A DNA stretch of 64,000 nucleotides, taken from contig NZ_QRUF01000007.1 of assembly GCF_003458415.1 (NCBI RefSeq), positions 42,083 through 106,082 on the forward strand. The letters run 5' to 3'. The translations under genes were made by a program, and so were the position numbers. Source of the stretch: Collinsella sp. AF25-2LB. Lineage in GTDB: Bacteria > Actinomycetota > Coriobacteriia > Coriobacteriales > Coriobacteriaceae. Below are positions 51,827 through 58,456 of the stretch, piece by piece (positions within the stretch are counted from its first letter, which is position 1; each line of letters opens with the position of its first letter). The notes under the pieces were generated by a model. The model was not told the origin of the DNA and did no database searches. It saw only the letters and a program-made list of their open reading frames with translations.

Positions 51827-52849
51827 CTAGCGCGAGGTCGATGCGCGATGTTCGATGTGGCCGGGGATCTCGATGCGCTTGGGGGCGAGCTTTGCGGCCT
51901 CGCCCACGGTGGTGGTAACAACATCGATGCGCTCGGACAGGCGCTCGACTACGCGCTCGGCAATGGTAAGGGTGTCTTGCGCTGCCGTGGTCACGCCGCC
52001 AAAGAGCACGTGATTCCAGGGATAGTCGTCAAACGTTGCGATCTTGAGACCCGCCGGCAGCGAGGGACCAAGCTGCGCCAGCGCCTCGGTCAGACGCAGG
52101 AAAACCAGGCCGTTGACGGCAATGAGGCCGAGCTTTTTGCCTGCATAGCCGCGGATGGTCTCGTCCAAGCGACCGACGCCCGTGGCGCCACCGTCGGCCA
52201 GGGTGACGACCTCGCCCGCAAGGCCGCGGCGCGAAAGCTCGTCGGCAAAGGCCTCGGCGCGCTCTCGACGCACGGGGCTATCGTCGCTTGCCTCGGTGAG
52301 CAGGCACAGACGCTCGCTGCCCGCAGCGGCGAGCTCGTCTACCAAGCCGGCGACGAGCTCACGGTTGTTAGATGTCACCAGATCGACACCGCCGTCGGCA
52401 ACATCGCGGTCGAGCAGCACAACGGGCAGACGTCCCGCTGCCGCGACGATCGCCTCGTCATTGCCTCCGCAGGTGTTGACGACCAGGCCGTCCACGCCGG
52501 CATCGATAAGTCTGGTGAGCGACTCCGCTTCCTTAGCGGGGTCGTTGCCGCTAATGGCCGTCATGAGCGAGCAGCCGCGCGCCGCGGCGCTGGCGGAAAG
52601 GCCCTCGAGCATGGCGCTCGAGAACGGGTTGGCGATGTCAGCCAGAATCACACCGATGAGGTTCGTACGCGAGCTGCGCAGATTGCGCGCGGCGGCACGT
52701 GGGCGATAGCCGGTGCGTTCGATAACCGCTGCGATGCGAGCGCGGGTTTCCTCGGTCATTTGCCCGGGGCGGTTGTTGAGATAGCGCGAGACCGTGGCCG
52801 GGCTCACGCCCGCCTCGGCGGCAATGTCCTTGATTCTCATCTGCGCCAT
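51827..52849 (-). CDS. kdgR: LacI-family regulator, KdgR-like
   Basis: A 340-residue LacI-type repressor. The N-terminal helix-turn-helix is MRIKDIAAEAGVSPATVSRY and the hinge helix follows at RAAARNLRSSRT. The effector domain contains FDDYPWNHVLFGG, a pattern seen in 2-keto-3-deoxygluconate-responsive KdgR proteins. It is divergent from kdgK, and the intergenic region carries the palindrome ACGAAACCGATTTCGT, also found upstream of the YczE-like gene at 56325. These are the likely operators. The start could be at 52849 or three codons later. Confidence 0.82.
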   Translation of the reverse strand: MAQMRIKDIAAEAGVSPATVSRYLNNRPGQMTEETRARIAAVIERTGYRPRAAARNLRSSRTNLIGVILADIANPFSSAMLEGLSASAAARGCSLMTAISGNDPAKEAESLTRLIDAGVDGLVVNTCGGNDEAIVAAAGRLPVVLLDRDVADGGVDLVTSNNRELVAGLVDELAAAGSERLCLLTEASDDSPVRRERAEAFADELSRRGLAGEVVTLADGGATGVGRLDETIRGYAGKKLGLIAVNGLVFLRLTEALAQLGPSLPAGLKIATFDDYPWNHVLFGGVTTAAQDTLTIAERVVERLSERIDVVTTTVGEAAKLAPKRIEIPGHIEHRASTSR

Positions 52850-52934
52850 AGCGCACCCCGTTTCCCAATTGTCGGCGATCTGAGCCATTTTAGGCATTTT
52901 TTAAAAATCTCGGTTGCAAAACGCTGTAGGTGAG

Positions 52935-52979
52935 TATACTACAACTCGAAACGAAACCGATTTCGTAAACCGATTTCGG
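52935..52979 (+). promoter_or_regulatory. kdgK promoter and LacI operators
   Basis: TATACT (52935-52940) is a good -10 box. Ten bases later lies the palindrome ACGAAACCGATTTCGT (52951-52966), then a second partial site, ACCGATTTCGG (52969-52979). The same -10 box and operator, at almost the same distance, occur at 56310-56340. The sites overlap the expected transcription start, so repression is expected. Confidence 0.8.
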
Positions 52980-52982
52980 CAA

Positions 52983-53040
52983 GCGTTGGCACGCAGGTGC
53001 AAAGACGCACCCTACCGTCTTGGCACCTGCGTGCCAACGC
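52983..53040 (+). other. Leader stem-loop with conserved apical sequence, copy 1
   Basis: A perfect 18-pair stem (52983-53000 with 53023-53040) closes a 22-base apical segment, AAAGACGCACCCTACC plus GTCTTG, in which AAGAC and GTCTT can also pair. At 56344-56401 the apical segment is almost identical while the stem sequence is different but still paired. It starts just after the operator, so it should be the first structure in the kdgK mRNA. Confidence 0.8.
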
Positions 53041-53082
53041 CATATCAAAGGTGTACGCACGAGTAAAAGGAGCTGCGCGACC

Positions 53083-54117
53083 ATGGGTAAAACGGTTCTT
53101 ACCTTCGGCGAGATCATGATGAGACTCTCGCCCAAAGACCACCTGCGTATTGAGCAGGCAACCGAGTTTGACGTCCGCTACGGCGGCGCCGAGGCCAACA
53201 CCGCGCTTTCCCTGGCCTACCAGGGCGACAAGGCCGCTTACGTCTCCGTTGTCCCGGCCAACCGTCTGGGCGAGTGCGCCCTGCGTTCGCTGAAGGCCTA
53301 CGACGTCGACACCACGCGCGTCGTGCGTCGGGGCGACCGCCTTGGCTCCTATGTGTTTGAGGTCGGTGCCTCGCAGCGCGGCAACGGTTGCGTCTACGAC
53401 CGCAAGTACTCTGCCATCAACATGGCCAAGCGCGACGTCTTTGACTGGGACGAGATCCTCAAGGGCATCGATGTCTTCTATTTCTCCGGCGTGACCCCCG
53501 CCGTCTCCGATGAGATGGCCGCCGCCTGCAAGGATGCGCTCGCCGCCTGCCGCGCCAAGGGCATCACCACCGTGTGTGACGTGAACTATCGCGGCAAGAT
53601 GTGGTCGCCCGAGAAGTCGCAGGCCACCATGAAGGAACTCCTGCCGCTCGTCGACATCTGCATCGCCAACGACGAGGATGCGCCTGCCGGCCTTGGCATG
53701 ACCTGCGTCTCTGGCTCCCTTTCCCACGGCATCGAGGAGCGCGACACCTACGTCGAGATGGCCCGCCAGATCTGCGCCGAGTACGGCTGCAAGAAGGTCG
53801 CCTCGGTCGTCCGCAACATCTCCTGCGTCGAGCGCTCCATCTGGATGGGCATGCTCTTTGACGCCGAGAGCGGCGAGCACTGGTTCTCCCCTGCTCACGA
53901 TGTACACGTGCTCGAGGGCGTTGCCGCTGGCGACGCTTTCAACGCCGGCCTCGTCCATGCCCTCATCAACGACTTTGACCCGCAGGCTGCCGTCAACTAC
54001 GCCATCGCGGCCTCGATCCTCAAGCTCACCATCAAGGGCGATTCCAACTTGGTGACCGCAGACGAGATCGCAGCCGTGGCATCAGCCGCCAACGGTGGCA
54101 CTCGCGTCGCACGCTAG
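53083..54117 (+). CDS. kdgK: 2-keto-3-deoxygluconate kinase
   Basis: KdgK phosphorylates 2-keto-3-deoxygluconate to KDPG in the breakdown of uronic acids and pectin-derived sugars. The 344-residue PfkB-family protein starts MGKTVLTFGEIMMRLSP, has the PfkB-type GGAEANTALSL segment near 35-45, and the ATP-site motif GVAAGDAFNAGLVHAL with catalytic aspartate near 285. The start at 53083 has AAAGGAG upstream. It is the first gene of a kdgK-eda unit under a LacI operator. The stem-loop leader suggests additional RNA-level control. Confidence 0.93.
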   Translation: MGKTVLTFGEIMMRLSPKDHLRIEQATEFDVRYGGAEANTALSLAYQGDKAAYVSVVPANRLGECALRSLKAYDVDTTRVVRRGDRLGSYVFEVGASQRGNGCVYDRKYSAINMAKRDVFDWDEILKGIDVFYFSGVTPAVSDEMAAACKDALAACRAKGITTVCDVNYRGKMWSPEKSQATMKELLPLVDICIANDEDAPAGLGMTCVSGSLSHGIEERDTYVEMARQICAEYGCKKVASVVRNISCVERSIWMGMLFDAESGEHWFSPAHDVHVLEGVAAGDAFNAGLVHALINDFDPQAAVNYAIAASILKLTIKGDSNLVTADEIAAVASAANGGTRVAR

Positions 54118-54131
54118 TCCGTCTCCATTCC

Positions 54132-54171
54132 GCGGGCCGCAGCTTTCCAATCCCATACCCCTGCGGCCCGC
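54132..54171 (+). other. Hairpin after kdgK
   Basis: An 11-pair stem (GCGGGCCGCAG with CTGCGGCCCGC) holds an 18-base loop reading CCAATCCCATACCC in part, similar to the AGTCCCATTCC loop of the next element. No T-tract follows, so it may be part of a larger structured region rather than a terminator. Confidence 0.6.
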
Positions 54172-54187
54172 TCCCCGATTCCTCCGG

Positions 54188-54320
54188 CCGGGCAAAACCA
54201 CCAGTCCCATTCCGGTTTTGCCTGGCATTTCCTACATGACTGGTCGAGCAGCCGGTTTTGGAATTGCTTGAACCCCAAGCAGTGCCTCCGATAACCAATC
54301 CAAAATCGGCTCCTGACCAG
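54188..54320 (+). other. Multi-stem RNA element before eda, copy 1
   Basis: The first stem (GGCAAAACC/GGTTTTGCC, extended by a G-T pair) presents AGTCCCATTCCGG in its loop. CTGGTC pairs with GACCAG (54240-54245 and 54315-54320), and a 12-pair stem (54251-54262 with 54299-54310, one G-T pair) lies inside. An inner TGCTT/AAGCA hairpin is followed by the fixed sequence CAGTGCCTCCGATAACC. The second copy at 56423-56547 keeps the loops and the last sequence but has different, still complementary stems. This is the form of a riboswitch or other cis-regulatory RNA. I do not recognise the class. Confidence 0.8.
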
Positions 54321-54370
54321 CACATTTGGCAATCACGCGCCCATGCGCGCCACACATCGAAAGGAACATC

Positions 54371-55012
54371 ATGTTCGATCAGTTCTACACCACGCTTGAG
54401 TCCCTGGGCATCGTGCCGGTCGTTGTGCTCGACAAGGTCGAGGACGCCGCTCCGCTCGCCCACGCCCTTATGGCAGCTGGCATGAAGTCCGCCGAGGTCA
54501 CCTTCCGCACCGCCTGCGCCGCCGAGTGCATCGCCGCTATGGCCGAGGCCGAGCCCGAGATGTGCGTTGGCGCCGGCACTGTCCTGACCGTCGAGCAGGT
54601 TGAGCAGGCCCGCGCAGCCGGTGCCAAGTTCATCGTCTCCCCGGGTTACAACGAGGACGTCGTGAAGCACTGCATCGACATCGACCTGCCCGTCCTTCCC
54701 GGCACCGTGACCCCCTCCGAGGTCACCGCAGCCGAGAACCTGGGCCTCAAGGTCACCAAGTTCTTCCCCGCGTCCCAGTATGGCGGCCTGAACACCATCA
54801 AGGCCCTCGCCGCTCCGTTTGTCGGTCACCGCTTTATGCCTACCGGCGGCGTGAGCACCGCCAACGTCGAGGAGTACCTGAGCTCCTCCGCCATCATCGC
54901 CTGCGGTGGCACCTGGATGGTCAAGCCGGCCCTGTTTGCCGACGGCGACTTCTCCAAGGTCGAGCAGATCGCCCGCGAGGCCATGGACGTCGTCAAGAAG
55001 GTCCGCGGCTAG
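54371..55012 (+). CDS. eda: KDPG aldolase
   Basis: Eda splits 2-keto-3-deoxy-6-phosphogluconate into pyruvate and glyceraldehyde 3-phosphate. The 213-residue TIM-barrel protein has IVPVVVLDKVEDA at the start, AEVTFRT with the catalytic glutamate, VGAGTVLT, and the Schiff-base lysine in LKVTKFFPAS. The GGTWMVKP segment closes the phosphate site. GAAAGGAACATC precedes the ATG. It follows kdgK by about 250 bases, and the gap contains a structured element, so eda may be controlled separately from kdgK. Confidence 0.95.
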   Translation: MFDQFYTTLESLGIVPVVVLDKVEDAAPLAHALMAAGMKSAEVTFRTACAAECIAAMAEAEPEMCVGAGTVLTVEQVEQARAAGAKFIVSPGYNEDVVKHCIDIDLPVLPGTVTPSEVTAAENLGLKVTKFFPASQYGGLNTIKALAAPFVGHRFMPTGGVSTANVEEYLSSSAIIACGGTWMVKPALFADGDFSKVEQIAREAMDVVKKVRG

Positions 55013-55029
55013 GTTTAGCTCTCTATCGT

Positions 55030-55067
55030 GAAAGGGGGCGTGCCCTAGACCTCGCCCCCTTTCTTTT
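55030..55067 (+). terminator. Terminator of eda
   Basis: GAAAGGGGGCG pairs with CGCCCCCTTTC around a 12-base loop and is followed by TTTT. It lies 17 bases after the eda stop. Confidence 0.9.
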
Positions 55068-55168
55068 AAAGCGGCTCGGAAGCGCGCCGTTTCCGTCACG
55101 GACAAGAACCGAAAACGTCTTGTATGCTGATAGAACGTGACGGAAGCGACACGCCCCCGAGCCGCTTT
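55068..55168. other. Nested inverted-repeat element
   Basis: Three concentric pairs are visible: AAAGCGGCTCGG/CCGAGCCGCTTT (55068-55079 and 55157-55168), TTCCGTCACG/CGTGACGGAA (55091-55100 and 55136-55145), and ACAAGA/TCTTGT inside. It directly follows the eda terminator and could be an RNA with coaxial stems or a mobile palindrome. Confidence 0.7.
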
Positions 55169-55230
55169 GCCTACTCGGTTGGCAACCGCGCTCAACTGAG
55201 CCACTTCGACAAAAGCCGAGCCACCAAAAC

Positions 55231-55301
55231 AGCTGCGGCGCCGTCTGGAGGAATGGACTCTTGCTTCCGGTCTTTTCCTCCAAGCAGCGCCGCAGCTTTT
55301 T
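55231..55301 (+). terminator. Large hairpin with T-tract between eda and gntR
   Basis: AGCTGCGGCGC pairs with GCGCCGCAGCT and, inside, TGGAGGA with TCCTCCA. Five T residues follow on the plus strand. It may end transcripts from the element upstream. Confidence 0.6.
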
Positions 55302-55322
55302 CGTGCCCCGATGTGCCCCGTC

Positions 55323-55389
55323 ACTTGCGGTGGAATACGGACTGCCTACACCATCAGAGCCGCAAAACAATCCCTATTTCACCGCAACT
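55323..55389. repeat. TTGCGGTGGAATA palindrome, copy 1
   Basis: ACTTGCGGTGGAATA and TATTTCACCGCAACT pair with two mismatches. The copy lies 15 bases 3' of the GntR-family gene; a longer perfect copy lies on its other side at 56167-56233. Confidence 0.75.
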
Positions 55390-55404
55390 AATGAAGGGGA
55401 CGAG

Positions 55405-56094
55405 TTAGATGGCCGAGTCTTTGGACAGCTCAAAATAGTCGGGATGCAAGGCGATAACCGGACCTTGCTCCTCGGGCATCAGGTGCAGGTGCGTCTCTGC
55501 CAGATAGCTCGCCGCGTCGGTATCGCCCCTCTTAATGGCCTCGAGAATCCGGCGGTGCTGCCGACGAATCGGCTCCCAATCCAGATCCTGCGACACCATA
55601 CGCAACCAGTTGTATCGCTCAAAATGCGTGTTGATGCTCTTCATCCAATCCCACAACATGTGGCGGCCGGCAATCTCAAAACATGTCTCATGGAACAGGT
55701 TGTCCAGATCGAAAAAGCGACGCGTTTCGCTATGGTCGAGCGACTCGGACTCGGCAAGAATCTGCTCGAGCCGACACTTCTGCTCGGGTGTGGCGGCAGA
55801 GCAGCATTTAATGAGCACGCTTCTCTCGAGTTTCTCACGCAAGAAACAGGCGTTCTCGGCGCGCTCCATGCTGATTTTTGAGACATAGGTGCCGCTTTTG
55901 GGACGCGTTTCCACCAGCTCCTGCTCACGCAGGCGCACAAAGGACTCGCGAATGGGCGTGCGTCCGATTCCCGTCTCCTTTTCCAGACCAATCGCCGAAA
56001 GGCGCGTGCCGGGCTTGAGCTCGGCATAGATGATCTTGGACCGCAATGCGTTGTACGCCTGGTCTTGCAGGCTCTGATAATGCTGCTGTTCCAT
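55405..56094 (-). CDS. GntR-family (FadR subfamily) regulator
   Basis: A 229-residue regulator with a winged helix at about 10-75 (SKIIYAELKPGTRLSAIGLE then GRTPIRESFVRLREQELVE) and a C-terminal helical FCD domain with the metal or ligand residues D, H and H in DLDNLFHETCFE and HRRILEAI. FadR-type GntR proteins such as UxuR and ExuR often control hexuronate pathways, which fits the neighbouring kdgK and eda. The start at 56094 follows GAGGG. The gene is flanked by two copies of the same palindrome. Confidence 0.85.
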   Translation of the reverse strand: MEQQHYQSLQDQAYNALRSKIIYAELKPGTRLSAIGLEKETGIGRTPIRESFVRLREQELVETRPKSGTYVSKISMERAENACFLREKLERSVLIKCCSAATPEQKCRLEQILAESESLDHSETRRFFDLDNLFHETCFEIAGRHMLWDWMKSINTHFERYNWLRMVSQDLDWEPIRRQHRRILEAIKRGDTDAASYLAETHLHLMPEEQGPVIALHPDYFELSKDSAI

Positions 56095-56166
56095 AAAGCC
56101 CTCGGATGAAGCCTCGGTTAATCGAATACCACCATGCAATACTATCGCATCCCCCGCCCCCCCATA

Positions 56167-56233
56167 AGTTGCGGTGGAATAGTTCCTGCTCAAGGCCTTC
56201 AGCAGCAAAAACAGGAACTATTCCACCGCAACT
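56167..56233. repeat. TTGCGGTGGAATA palindrome, copy 2
   Basis: AGTTGCGGTGGAATAGTTCC plus TG at 56167-56188 is repeated inverted at 56212-56233 without mismatch, a 22-pair stem with a 23-base loop. A diverged copy lies at 55323-55389. Confidence 0.85.
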
Positions 56234-56257
56234 ACAGCCAACGAGTTGTTGCAATTA

Positions 56258-56271
56258 GGTGAACGTTCACC
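56258..56271. promoter_or_regulatory. Perfect palindrome GGTGAACGTTCACC
   Basis: A 14-bp perfect palindrome in the divergent region between the GntR and YczE genes. Its size and AACGTT centre suit a LacI- or GntR-type operator. It occurs once in the window. Confidence 0.55.
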
Positions 56272-56309
56272 TTTTTATTGTTTTTCTCTTCGCAAATAAA
56301 ATCCCGTCG

Positions 56310-56340
56310 TATACTTAGGCTCAAACGAAACCGATTTCGT
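56310..56340 (+). promoter_or_regulatory. yczE promoter and LacI operator
   Basis: TATACT (56310-56315) is followed nine bases later by ACGAAACCGATTTCGT (56325-56340), identical to the kdgK operator. This places the membrane protein gene in the same regulon. Confidence 0.8.
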
Positions 56341-56343
56341 TGA

Positions 56344-56401
56344 GCGTGGGCAATATGATGCTAAGACGCACCCTACCATCTTGGCATCTTATCGCCCACG
56401 C
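56344..56401 (+). other. Leader stem-loop with conserved apical sequence, copy 2
   Basis: GCGTGGGC-A-ATA-T-GATGC pairs with GCATC-T-TAT-C-GCCCACGC (56344-56361 with 56384-56401), 16 of 18 positions. The apical segment TAAGACGCACCCTACC plus ATCTTG matches the copy at 52983-53040 at 20 of 22 positions, although the stems are unrelated in sequence. Confidence 0.8.
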
Positions 56402-56422
56402 AATGCCATTTGCTTTCTTCCC

Positions 56423-56547
56423 GTCTCGTTGGACCTTTAGTCCCATTCCGGCACAGCGAGACACTTCCTAGACGACTGACCGTGGGGCCGGCTTTTCTGC
56501 TTTTGCAGCAGTGCCTCCGATAACCCTCTTTTGCCGGCCCGGGTCAG
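56423..56547 (+). other. Multi-stem RNA element before yczE, copy 2
   Basis: The first stem is GTCTCG/CGAGAC with AGTCCCATTCCGG in the loop (56439-56451). The second stem pairs CTGACC with GGTCAG and GGGCCGGC with GCCGGCCC. Inside, CTGCTTTTGCAG is a hairpin and CAGTGCCTCCGATAACC (56509-56525) is identical to copy 1 before eda. It ends 33 bases before the ATG, so it could hide or expose the ribosome-binding site. Confidence 0.8.
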
Positions 56548-56580
56548 CTTTTTCACACAACCGAAAGGACGGGTAGCAAC

Positions 56581-57261
56581 ATGCGACCGCTCATCATCAT
56601 GCATGGCGAGAACATCGACTGGTGCCATACCGTCATCAGAATGCTGATGTATCTGGTGGGCGTTGCAGTACTGGCACTCGGTATGAGTCTCCAGACGGCA
56701 TCCGGCCTGGGCGTCGCCGCGCTCACGTGCTTTGCCACAACCCTATCCATGCTCACTGGCAAGACGCTCGGCTTTTGGATCACCGCAACCTACGTCGCCT
56801 ACATCGTGGCGCAATTAGCCATCTTGCGAAGCGAGTTCCAGCCGCGCATCCTGCTCGAGTTGTTCTTCTCAACGCTGATTGGCGGCTTGACCGACCTCTT
56901 CATGGCGGTCAACCCACTGCATCCCACGGCACTCCCCACACAGATTGCGACCATGCTGCTCTCCCTCGCTGTCACCGCATTTGGCGTAAGTCTCGTCGTC
57001 AACATGGGCGTTGTCCCCAACGCGCCCGACGGCTTGGTGCAAGTCATTGCCGAAAAGCTTAAACGCCGCTTTGGTGACGTAAAAGTCGTGTTTGACTGCT
57101 CACATGTCGCCGCCTCGCTCGCGTTGTCGCTGATCTTTATGTACAACCTGGGCGGCTTTGGCGTCACGACCGCCATCTCGGCACTGTTCCTGGGCCATGT
57201 CATCAACGTCGCCAACAAGCTGTTCGCCCAGCGCTTTGTGCGCGCGGCATTCGGGAAATAG
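56581..57261 (+). CDS. yczE: YczE/YyaS/YitT-type membrane protein
   Basis: A 226-residue integral membrane protein with five or six hydrophobic segments. The first, RMLMYLVGVAVLALGMSLQT, and the MGVVPNAPDGLVQVIAEKL loop are typical of the YczE/YitT group, whose transport substrate is unknown. Its promoter carries the same LacI operator and leader RNA motifs as kdgK and eda, so a role in uptake or export of a uronic acid or its breakdown product is a reasonable inference. GAAAGGA lies 11 bases before the ATG. Confidence 0.82.
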   Translation: MRPLIIMHGENIDWCHTVIRMLMYLVGVAVLALGMSLQTASGLGVAALTCFATTLSMLTGKTLGFWITATYVAYIVAQLAILRSEFQPRILLELFFSTLIGGLTDLFMAVNPLHPTALPTQIATMLLSLAVTAFGVSLVVNMGVVPNAPDGLVQVIAEKLKRRFGDVKVVFDCSHVAASLALSLIFMYNLGGFGVTTAISALFLGHVINVANKLFAQRFVRAAFGK

Positions 57262-57307
57262 CACCACCGTAAGAACCCGCGAACAGCGCTATACGTTGCT
57301 ATATCTC

Positions 57308-57348
57308 ACTATACTTTGCTATACTTTGCTATACTTTGCTATATCTTG
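57308..57348 (+). repeat. 10-bp tandem repeat in the ATPase promoter region
   Basis: CTATACTTTG is repeated three times, followed by CTATATCTTG, with diverged copies before it from 57289. Each unit contains a TATACT box. Copy-number change would alter promoter strength or spacing. Confidence 0.8.
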
Positions 57349-57364: not shown

Positions 57365-58456
57365 ATGCAAACAAACCCTTTTAAGCCCACAGCAGGTAAA
57401 ACACCTCCCACGATTATCGGCCGCGAAGATGTACTTGAAGAATTCAGTGAAGGCCTCACCAACGGGCCTGGTGCCCCTGGGCGCCTAATGCGCATAGCCG
57501 GCGTCCGTGGAACGGGCAAGACGGTCCTCCTTGACAAGTGCTCACGTTTGGCGCAAAGCCGTGGCTGGACGGTCATAAAAGAGGTCGCAACCGAGGGACT
57601 TTGCCAGCGCATTCTCGAACAGCTGCAGCCCAAATTCCAGGCCAAACACGCCAGATTTGAGCCCACCGTAGCTGGCATATCCATCGGCAGCATAGATATT
57701 GAGCGAATCGGCCCATCGCTACGCGACGCCATGAGACAGACAATATCCAAGAATGGAAATGGCCTGCTCATCACTCTCGACGAGGTTCAAGACGCAGAGC
57801 TCGATGAGGTCCGAACGCTCTCCATTGCGATTCAGCAGGTTATCGGCGAAGACCTTGATATCGCCTTTGTTTTTGCTGGGCTGCCTTCGATGATTGAAAG
57901 CATCATCAACGGAAAGACACTTACGTTTTTGCGCCGTGCCCTCCCCTTTGATCTGAAGGCTGTGGCAGTAACCGAAGTGTCGTACTCCCTCGAGGAAACC
58001 ATTGAAGCGTCTGGCATGGAGTTGCAGCCAGGTATTGCCGGCCAACTTGCCGAGGCAACGCAAGGCTATCCTTTCATGATCCAACTCGTTGGATACTACG
58101 CATGGCAGTTGGCAAGACGTGCACATACAGCGATTATTGGAGAAGAAGAAGCCGAGCGTGGCATTGCAACGGCACGCGAACGCTTCTGCGCCATGGTGAT
58201 TGAGCCCGCGCTGCGGCGCATTCCGCCCACGTGCATCGCTTATCTGCTGAGCATGGCGTCTTTGGGGCAGACGAGCTCGACTAGCATGGTTGCCGATGGC
58301 CTAAACAAAACGCCTCAACAGGTGAGCTCCGTCCGCAGCCGCCTGTTAAGAGAATCGATTATCGAGGCCCCCTCGTACGGCAAGGTCTCATTTGCCATCC
58401 CCTACATGCGCAATTACCTCTACGAACACAAAGCCGAACTGGAAGTTGAACTGTAG
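57365..58456 (+). CDS. AAA/ORC-STAND ATPase
   Basis: A 363-residue ATPase with Walker A GVRGTGKTVLL (about residues 44-54) and Walker B LLITLDEVQD (about 136-145), an arginine-rich sensor region, and a C-terminal winged helix (PQQVSSVRSRLLRES). It belongs with the ORC1/AAA_16-like ATPases found alone in many actinobacterial genomes. GC content is below the local average. AAAGG precedes the ATG; a GTG nine bases upstream is possible. Tandem repeats lie before it and a palindromic array after it. Function is unknown; a defence or mobile-element role is possible. Confidence 0.72.
   Translation: MQTNPFKPTAGKTPPTIIGREDVLEEFSEGLTNGPGAPGRLMRIAGVRGTGKTVLLDKCSRLAQSRGWTVIKEVATEGLCQRILEQLQPKFQAKHARFEPTVAGISIGSIDIERIGPSLRDAMRQTISKNGNGLLITLDEVQDAELDEVRTLSIAIQQVIGEDLDIAFVFAGLPSMIESIINGKTLTFLRRALPFDLKAVAVTEVSYSLEETIEASGMELQPGIAGQLAEATQGYPFMIQLVGYYAWQLARRAHTAIIGEEEAERGIATARERFCAMVIEPALRRIPPTCIAYLLSMASLGQTSSTSMVADGLNKTPQQVSSVRSRLLRESIIEAPSYGKVSFAIPYMRNYLYEHKAELEVEL

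Follow-up and report, generated by a model that had tools for sequence, protein, structure and literature searches.

A LacI-family regulator gene lies divergent from a set of genes that read as one sugar-acid regulon, comprising the kdgK-eda operon and a gene for a yczE-like membrane protein (Table 1; the window is the whole stretch of 64,000 nucleotides that was analysed, and all positions refer to it). As the kinase falls below the NCBIfam equivalog cut-offs, we infer its substrate. An identical 14-base operator-like site was found in the leaders of kdgK and yczE, in each case downstream of a TATACT read by eye, and its presence at both leaders supports yczE as a member of the regulon; a sigma-70 consensus scan found no promoter. 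In another Collinsella genome (G033), the closest YczE homologue (63%) overlaps the end of iolC (L122:1453-3206), the gene for a 5-dehydro-2-deoxygluconokinase (NCBIfam iolC 373 bits, cut-off 300). Together with kdgK at the present locus, this overlap suggests that DUF6198 proteins of the YczE kind handle keto-deoxy sugar acids.

Table 1 Genes, putative operators and folded elements of the locus
Feature	Position	Strand	Remarks
LacI-family regulator gene	51827..52858	-	Divergent from kdgK; Pfam LacI E 8.9e-17
Putative LacI-type operator CGAAACCGATTTCG before kdgK	52952..52965	.	11 bases downstream of TATACT (52935-52940)
Motif A, kdgK leader	52983..53040	+ (from context)	Long hairpin, conserved centre AAGACGCACCCTACCGTCTTGG (53002-53023)
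kdgK, 2-keto-3-deoxygluconate kinase-like PfkB kinase	53083..54117	+	Under NCBIfam equivalog cut-offs
Hairpin C	54132..54171	+	kdgK-eda spacer; loop CTTTCCAATCCCATACCC, flanks CTCCATTCC and CTCCCCGATTCCTCC
Motif B, eda copy	54187-54320	+	kdgK-eda spacer
B eda copy, helix P1 hairpin	54187..54226	+	Loop with block 1 AGUCCCAUUCC (54203-54213)
B eda copy, joining segment	54227..54239	+	UUUCCUA and GA
B eda copy, 3' part	54240..54320	+	P2, P3, P4 and unpaired bulge with block 3
B eda copy, helices	P2 54240-54245/54315-54320; P3 54250-54262/54299-54311; P4 54263-54270/54276-54283		
B eda copy, block 3 GCAGUGCCUCCGAUAACC	54279-54296	+	In bulge
eda, KDPG/KHG aldolase	54371..55012	+	Pfam Aldolase E 3.2e-66; NCBIfam eda above cut-off
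GntR/FCD regulator gene	55405-56094		Convergent, between eda and yczE
Putative LacI-type operator CGAAACCGATTTCG before motif A of yczE	56326..56339	.	10 bases downstream of TATACT (56310-56315)
Motif A, yczE leader	56344..56401	+ (from context)	Directly before motif B
Motif B, yczE copy	56423-56547	+	yczE leader
B yczE copy, P1 hairpin	56423..56462	+	Block 1 at 56439-56449
B yczE copy, 3' part	56476..56547	+	P2 56476-56481/56542-56547; P3 56486-56492/56533-56539; small P4 hairpin
B yczE copy, block 3 AGTGCCTCCGATAACC	56510-56525	+	
yczE-like membrane protein, DUF6198	56581..57261	+	Pfam DUF6198 E 8.4e-16; NCBIfam YczE 35.8 bits, cut-off 205

The original prediction described two copies of a riboswitch-like element, here termed motif B, that share three unpaired blocks and lie upstream of genes of one sugar-acid regulon. 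Both copies were located before eda and yczE, 50 and 33 bases respectively from the start codon, and carry the block words exactly, block 1 (AGTCCCATTCCGG) at 54203 and 56439 and block 3 (AGTGCCTCCGATAACC) at 54281 and 56510; neither word has a further exact copy in the window. With up to three mismatches, the 16-mer block word occurs three times in the window (twice exactly) against 0.37 by shuffles, while the 13-mer word at up to two mismatches occurs three times against 1.39, so that only the exactness of the 13-mer copies is telling. The two copies fold alike, with a P1 hairpin that holds block 1 in its loop, a joining segment, and P2 and P3 around a small P4, and in both block 3 lies within a large single-stranded region on the 3' side. 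The three shared blocks were only partly as described, since blocks 1 and 3 are exact but parts of them are paired: the leading CAG of block 3 pairs in P4 in most models, leaving a free part of about UGCCUCCGAUAACC, and the last two bases of block 1, GG, close its own loop. The TTCCTA of the joining segment, described as a shared block, is kept loosely in relatives (TTCCCTA, TTCCTTC, TTTCTA). GACU (54238-54241), at the start of P2, is able to pair with an AGUC of the P1 loop, a possible pseudoknot that would compete with P2; these bases are complementary in 98.1% of cells although the GA lies outside P2, and because the pairs hardly vary, covariation is silent on this pairing. The spacing between blocks 1 and 3 differs by 7 bases between the two window copies, which is not a multiple of 3, so that no single reading frame spans both blocks, and a chance or coding origin of B was rejected.

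The alignment of B comprised 23 matches (21 distinct; 14 eda-type and 7 yczE-type) drawn from the window and 21 loci searched. The model to which it was fitted came from 11 sequences aligned with MAFFT, and that smaller alignment gives the same picture. The stems had been described as different yet still complementary, G-T pairs included, and this holds across the alignment, where the three helices contain standard pairs in 98.6% of 504 cells (21 distinct sequences), 47 of them G.U. Both-sided changes occur in 10 of the 24 pairs, a bare number reached by 28 of 500 shuffles, and the covariation score of 0.450 was reached by none of 500 shuffles, with slid-partner controls at or below 0.134. RNAalifold, run on the fitted alignment with no structure supplied, recovered the same three helices, with 24 pairs of which 10 show both-sided changes. 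Most of this covariation lies between the two paralogue groups, so that few independent events are counted; identity between the groups is 99.5% in the blocks, 51% outside the blocks and 59% in the paired columns. Block 1 is invariant in all 21 distinct sequences and block 3 at 17 of its 18 columns. The excess of G.U over A.C cells (47 versus 6) indicates an RNA on the + strand, and in shuffle tests the fold of the eda copy has z -7.9 on the + strand and -3.0 on the - strand, that of the yczE copy -3.0 and -1.9, respectively. B thus has the features of cis-regulatory structured RNAs, namely compensatory changes in its helices and a strand co-directional with, and a position upstream of, the linked genes. 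It is a real, covarying, + strand folded mRNA element whose blocks are under selection.

A covariance model across the Coriobacteriia had been proposed at the outset, and the model of B (R1) found 23 elements at an E value of 0.01 in 16 of 43 genomes of the genus, with no third copy in any of the 16. Among 396 sampled genomes of the class at E up to 1, 19 had a match, namely the same 16 plus G333, G046 and G021, and among 396 sampled genomes of the phylum (a sample overlapping that of the class) at E up to 0.1, only G001 did; both searches used strict filters, by which weak matches are lost. The three additional matches (at most 19.4 bits) were judged to be chance, none having both blocks. Block 1 is present with one change in G046, and block 3 with three changes in G333, where it lies upstream of an ORF read as ahpC-like; these near-blocks may be distant relatives of B. 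An exact two-block scan of a genome contig collection returned 20 stretches, 17 of them in 14 Collinsella records (C. aerofaciens strains, Collinsella sp. TF06-26, 4_8_47FAA, BG-O-102 and uncultured MAGs), and the same pattern was absent from a viral contig collection. The three stretches outside Collinsella were taken as chance, about one being expected by our own estimate with equal base frequencies; those in Butyrivibrio and Deltaproteobacteria lie antisense within long ORFs. The third, in a Treponema MAG (L077:2864-2949), has the exact block words in the gap separating two ORFs, with an ATG 20 bases further on, so that it is not accounted for by coding; a hairpin loop is predicted to hold its block 1, and R1 does not match it with filters off at E up to 10. 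B is therefore confined to one Collinsella aerofaciens clade in the genomes sampled, with no convincing match outside it, and the expectation that the blocks would be conserved in other species holds for other Collinsella genomes but extends no further than one clade of one genus. Separately, AGGGCCTCCGATATCC, two letters off block 3, occurs up to six times per genome in some Collinsella (for example L007:1501-1516), and was rejected as a copy of B, as the copy read (L007) has no block 1.

A second conserved hairpin, motif A, is present in both leaders and is new here. It forms up to 23 pairs around a conserved centre (AAGACGCACCCTACCRTCTTGG), and its arms have diverged but remain complementary, with standard pairing in 95.0% of 460 cells (20 distinct sequences). 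Its covariation score of 0.281 was reached by none of 500 shuffles (slid controls at most 0.088), and both-sided change was found in 7 pairs, a number matched by 317 of 500 shuffles. Wobble counts for A (12 G.U versus 17 A.C) carry no strand preference, so that it might work at the DNA level or from the opposite strand; the strand given in Table 1 is taken from context. The covariance model of A gave 23 matches in 16 of the 43 genus genomes, the same 16 as for B, and its other matches were discarded as the opposite strand of the palindrome or as weak matches in G017, G022 and G065 that lack the A centre. A and B occur together at 16 of 16 kdgK-eda loci and 7 of 7 yczE loci (at least 90% identity), the A of yczE in G015 differing by one letter. 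The layouts are A-kdgK-C-B-eda and A-B-yczE, placing A near the predicted 5' end of each mRNA and B before the last gene. Two other Collinsella genomes (G033 and G066) have kdgK at 74-75% identity in an operon whose leaders, when read, contained neither A nor B, and the leader of the G033 YczE homologue, also read, is not of the A/B kind.

Between kdgK and eda, B is preceded by hairpin C, which like A was no part of the original prediction, and whose CCCATACC is kept in 12 of 12 aligned sequences, and which has a mismatch or shortened stem in 5 of 11 distinct spacers folded. The loops of A (ACCCTACC), C (CCCATACC) and B (CCCATTCC) resemble one another and the flanks of C (CTCCATTCC, CCCCGATTCC): the conserved unpaired segments of B are C-rich, and several hairpins repeat the word CC(G)(A)UWCC. 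As the pattern CCG?A?T[AT]CC, defined post hoc from the loops and with A and B each counted twice in the tally, this word was counted 7 times over 594 nt of leader, where the rate in the rest of the window (77 copies) predicts 0.36, and 15 times over 17,480 nt of other gaps; shuffled leaders held a mean of 0.93 and a maximum of 5, none of 1000 reaching 7. Five of the six hairpins in the window with at least 8 pairs and a CCCA?T[AT]CC loop sit in the A/B/C leaders. In the kdgK-eda spacer, C makes up 48% and G 5% of the bases predicted to be unpaired, a difference of 0.43 that exceeds all 31 oriented gaps scanned (largest 0.25), these controls including both strands of the gap before yczE. Elsewhere the C excess is unremarkable: measured from A, it is 0.24 in the yczE leader and 0.13 in the kdgK leader, both in the control range.

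Two further elements lie downstream of eda. Element D (55068-55163), of about 96 nt, is nearly invariant in the clade and folds on either strand; it is found just past a terminator-like hairpin behind eda (about 55029-55066), in one copy per genome in 16 of the 43 genus genomes. Element E (about 55231-55298) is a long hairpin, followed by a T run in most genomes, between the convergent eda and GntR genes, and was detected in 15 of the 43 genus genomes at up to three mismatches, with a more diverged copy in the sixteenth (G005). One arm of E, GUCUGGAGGAAUGGAC, is complementary to the C-rich leader blocks. Neither D nor E had an Rfam match above the gathering score. All of these elements share one locus in one clade, so that their co-occurrence is not independent evidence.

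The full window was scanned with the 4227 models of Rfam 15, which presumably include RF01700, judging from its accession, using the gathering score of each family as the criterion. The only match was to tmRNA, elsewhere in the window, and no family matched B, in line with the original view, in which the motif was not recognised among familiar classes. At E up to 10, the region 52900-56700 gave 13 matches, all below gathering score and to microRNA, snoRNA and sRNA models away from B. Covariation, the + strand wobble, the lack of an Rfam match and retention in other Collinsella genomes thus bear out the proposal of a structured RNA element before the sugar-acid genes, and we rate B as a new orphan, probably cis-regulatory RNA. 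Like the orphan riboswitch candidates and other cis-regulatory RNAs, it combines a covarying structure before linked genes with invariant unpaired blocks, and like them it has two diverged copies in one genome; unlike them, it is restricted to one Collinsella clade, its unpaired blocks are C-rich and it has a partner element, A. The short words repeated on hairpins of one mRNA recall the targets of CsrA/RsmA and the RAT sites of LicT/BglG; there the word is GGA or the RAT sequence, respectively, whereas the words of A, B and C are C-rich and protein binding here is a proposal only. The Collinsella-1 RNA (RF01700), listed for Actinobacteria and the human gut (PMC2864571), is likewise a structured RNA and is named after the same genus, but is not among the Rfam 15 matches. 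A literature search, with the candidate tables of PMC8040213 outside its scope, returned no description of B. Outside those tables, PMC8040213 gives HMP2_254, a predicted structured RNA of Collinsella (51 bp) that, unlike B, lies before ribosomal protein L7/L12; B may be another candidate of that study.

The means by which B could act on gene expression was sought in its surroundings. A terminator scan found none at B and none conserved; after P2, the yczE copies continue with CTTTTTC, CCTTTTC, TTTTTTC, ACATTTC or CCCAATT, and eda copies have no T run at this point. The Shine-Dalgarno (SD) sequence is partly paired in full-leader models, its partners vary between genomes, and no conserved sequestration was found among the genomes modelled. 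Pairing of the SD by the joining UUCC was rejected, being marginal (0.05 of shuffles, for the eda joining segment with the eda SD, one of 105 pairings) and not conserved. A search for tmRNA pairing, run without a shuffle control, gave nothing usable.

We propose that B is a cis-acting folded mRNA element that would control the gene just downstream (eda or yczE) once transcription has begun, within a small regulon whose putative promoters would share one LacI-type operator. B would work together with hairpin A, near the predicted 5' end of each mRNA, and the likeliest trigger would be a putative trans-acting RNA-binding factor that reads C-rich unpaired faces (CC(G)(A)UWCC, UGCCUCCGAUAACC); several hairpins per transcript would show these faces, and the factor would change translation or readthrough. 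We give this reading a probability of about 35%. Points in its favour are the block identity, covariation and wobble of B, the co-occurrence of A and B, the common operator, the C excess of the spacer and the word count. Counted against it are the invariant unpaired blocks (11 and about 14 bases), which in a multi-helix fold would suit a ligand pocket too, the post hoc definition of the C-rich word and the double counting of A and B in its tally, a C excess that is exceptional only in the kdgK-eda spacer, the lack of strand preference in A, and bare numbers of both-sided pairs that are less decisive than the covariation scores.

That ligand pocket is the core of a second reading, which we hold possible but tentative, in which B would serve as the aptamer of a riboswitch for a pathway metabolite (KDG or KDPG, for example) and thereby adjust eda and yczE, with the AGUC/GACU pairing, in competition with P2, as the switching step. 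The complex fold, with two invariant unpaired regions among diverged stems, would be well explained, as would the placement of B copies only before genes of one regulon with no third copy in the 16 genomes, and the persistent AGUC/GACU complementarity described above. Less expected of a riboswitch are a copy within an operon spacer, restriction to one clade of one genus, the lack of a conserved terminator or conserved SD sequestration, and conserved unpaired bases that are C-rich, which to our knowledge is unusual for aptamers. That A and B jointly form a two-part, new metabolite-sensing RNA class for the KDG/KDPG pathway, acting on every regulon transcript, appears rather doubtful. The presence of A and B on the same transcripts, the C-rich words on several hairpins and the lack of a visible expression platform place a trans-acting factor slightly above a riboswitch.

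Those same leaders could instead carry devices for mRNA processing or stability, with A shielding the 5' end, the intercistronic C and B setting the kdgK:eda mRNA ratio, and an RNase or its partners responsible for the conservation of the loops. This reading agrees with the long and nearly perfect hairpin that A forms near the predicted 5' end, with a kdgK-eda spacer filled by C and B, and with the lack of a visible platform; generic stability hairpins, however, need not hold their blocks at 99.5% between copies, and B is also present in the yczE leader, which has no upstream cistron. We consider this reading unlikely. Least probable, and improbable in our view, is that the C-rich blocks are base-pairing targets of a G-rich RNA, possibly the GUCUGGAGGAAUGGAC strand of element E. 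At 55247-55257, E contains exact 8-base complements to TCCATTCC and ATTCCTCC and 7-base complements to CCATTCC, and it occurs in the same clade as B. Against 55020-55310, 11 segments gave a summed duplex energy that 4 of 300 shuffles reached, and for the best single segment, the yczE joining segment, 1 of 300 did so, but most single segments were not significant (block 1, 45/300 and 19/300). The best site lies in E for only 5 of the 11 segments, the other six having theirs in the eda terminator hairpin or just beyond; the G-rich strand of E is paired in its own strong hairpin, E may be a mere bidirectional terminator between convergent genes, and the co-occurrence reflects one shared locus. 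The resulting order, with the trans-acting factor before the metabolite riboswitch, then processing or stability and then pairing with a G-rich RNA, is a judgement in which we lean slightly towards the first.

If a protein reads the C-rich loops, as in the reading we prefer, it would be an undescribed RNA-binding regulator in Coriobacteriia; if the trigger of B is instead a keto-deoxy sugar acid or the phosphate of one, B would represent a type of RNA sensor without precedent in the literature searched, in a common gut bacterium. Either way, A and B form a compact, testable system, for which G033 and G066, with their operon free of A and B, are natural comparisons. Two minor features were noted nearby: the GntR gene is flanked by two related hairpins (55326-55390 and 56167-56234) with the ends TTGCGGTGGAATA and TATTYCACCGCAACTA, and tandem 10-base repeats (TTTGCTATAC-like) lie at 57288-57346, just before an AAA ATPase gene (57365-58456).
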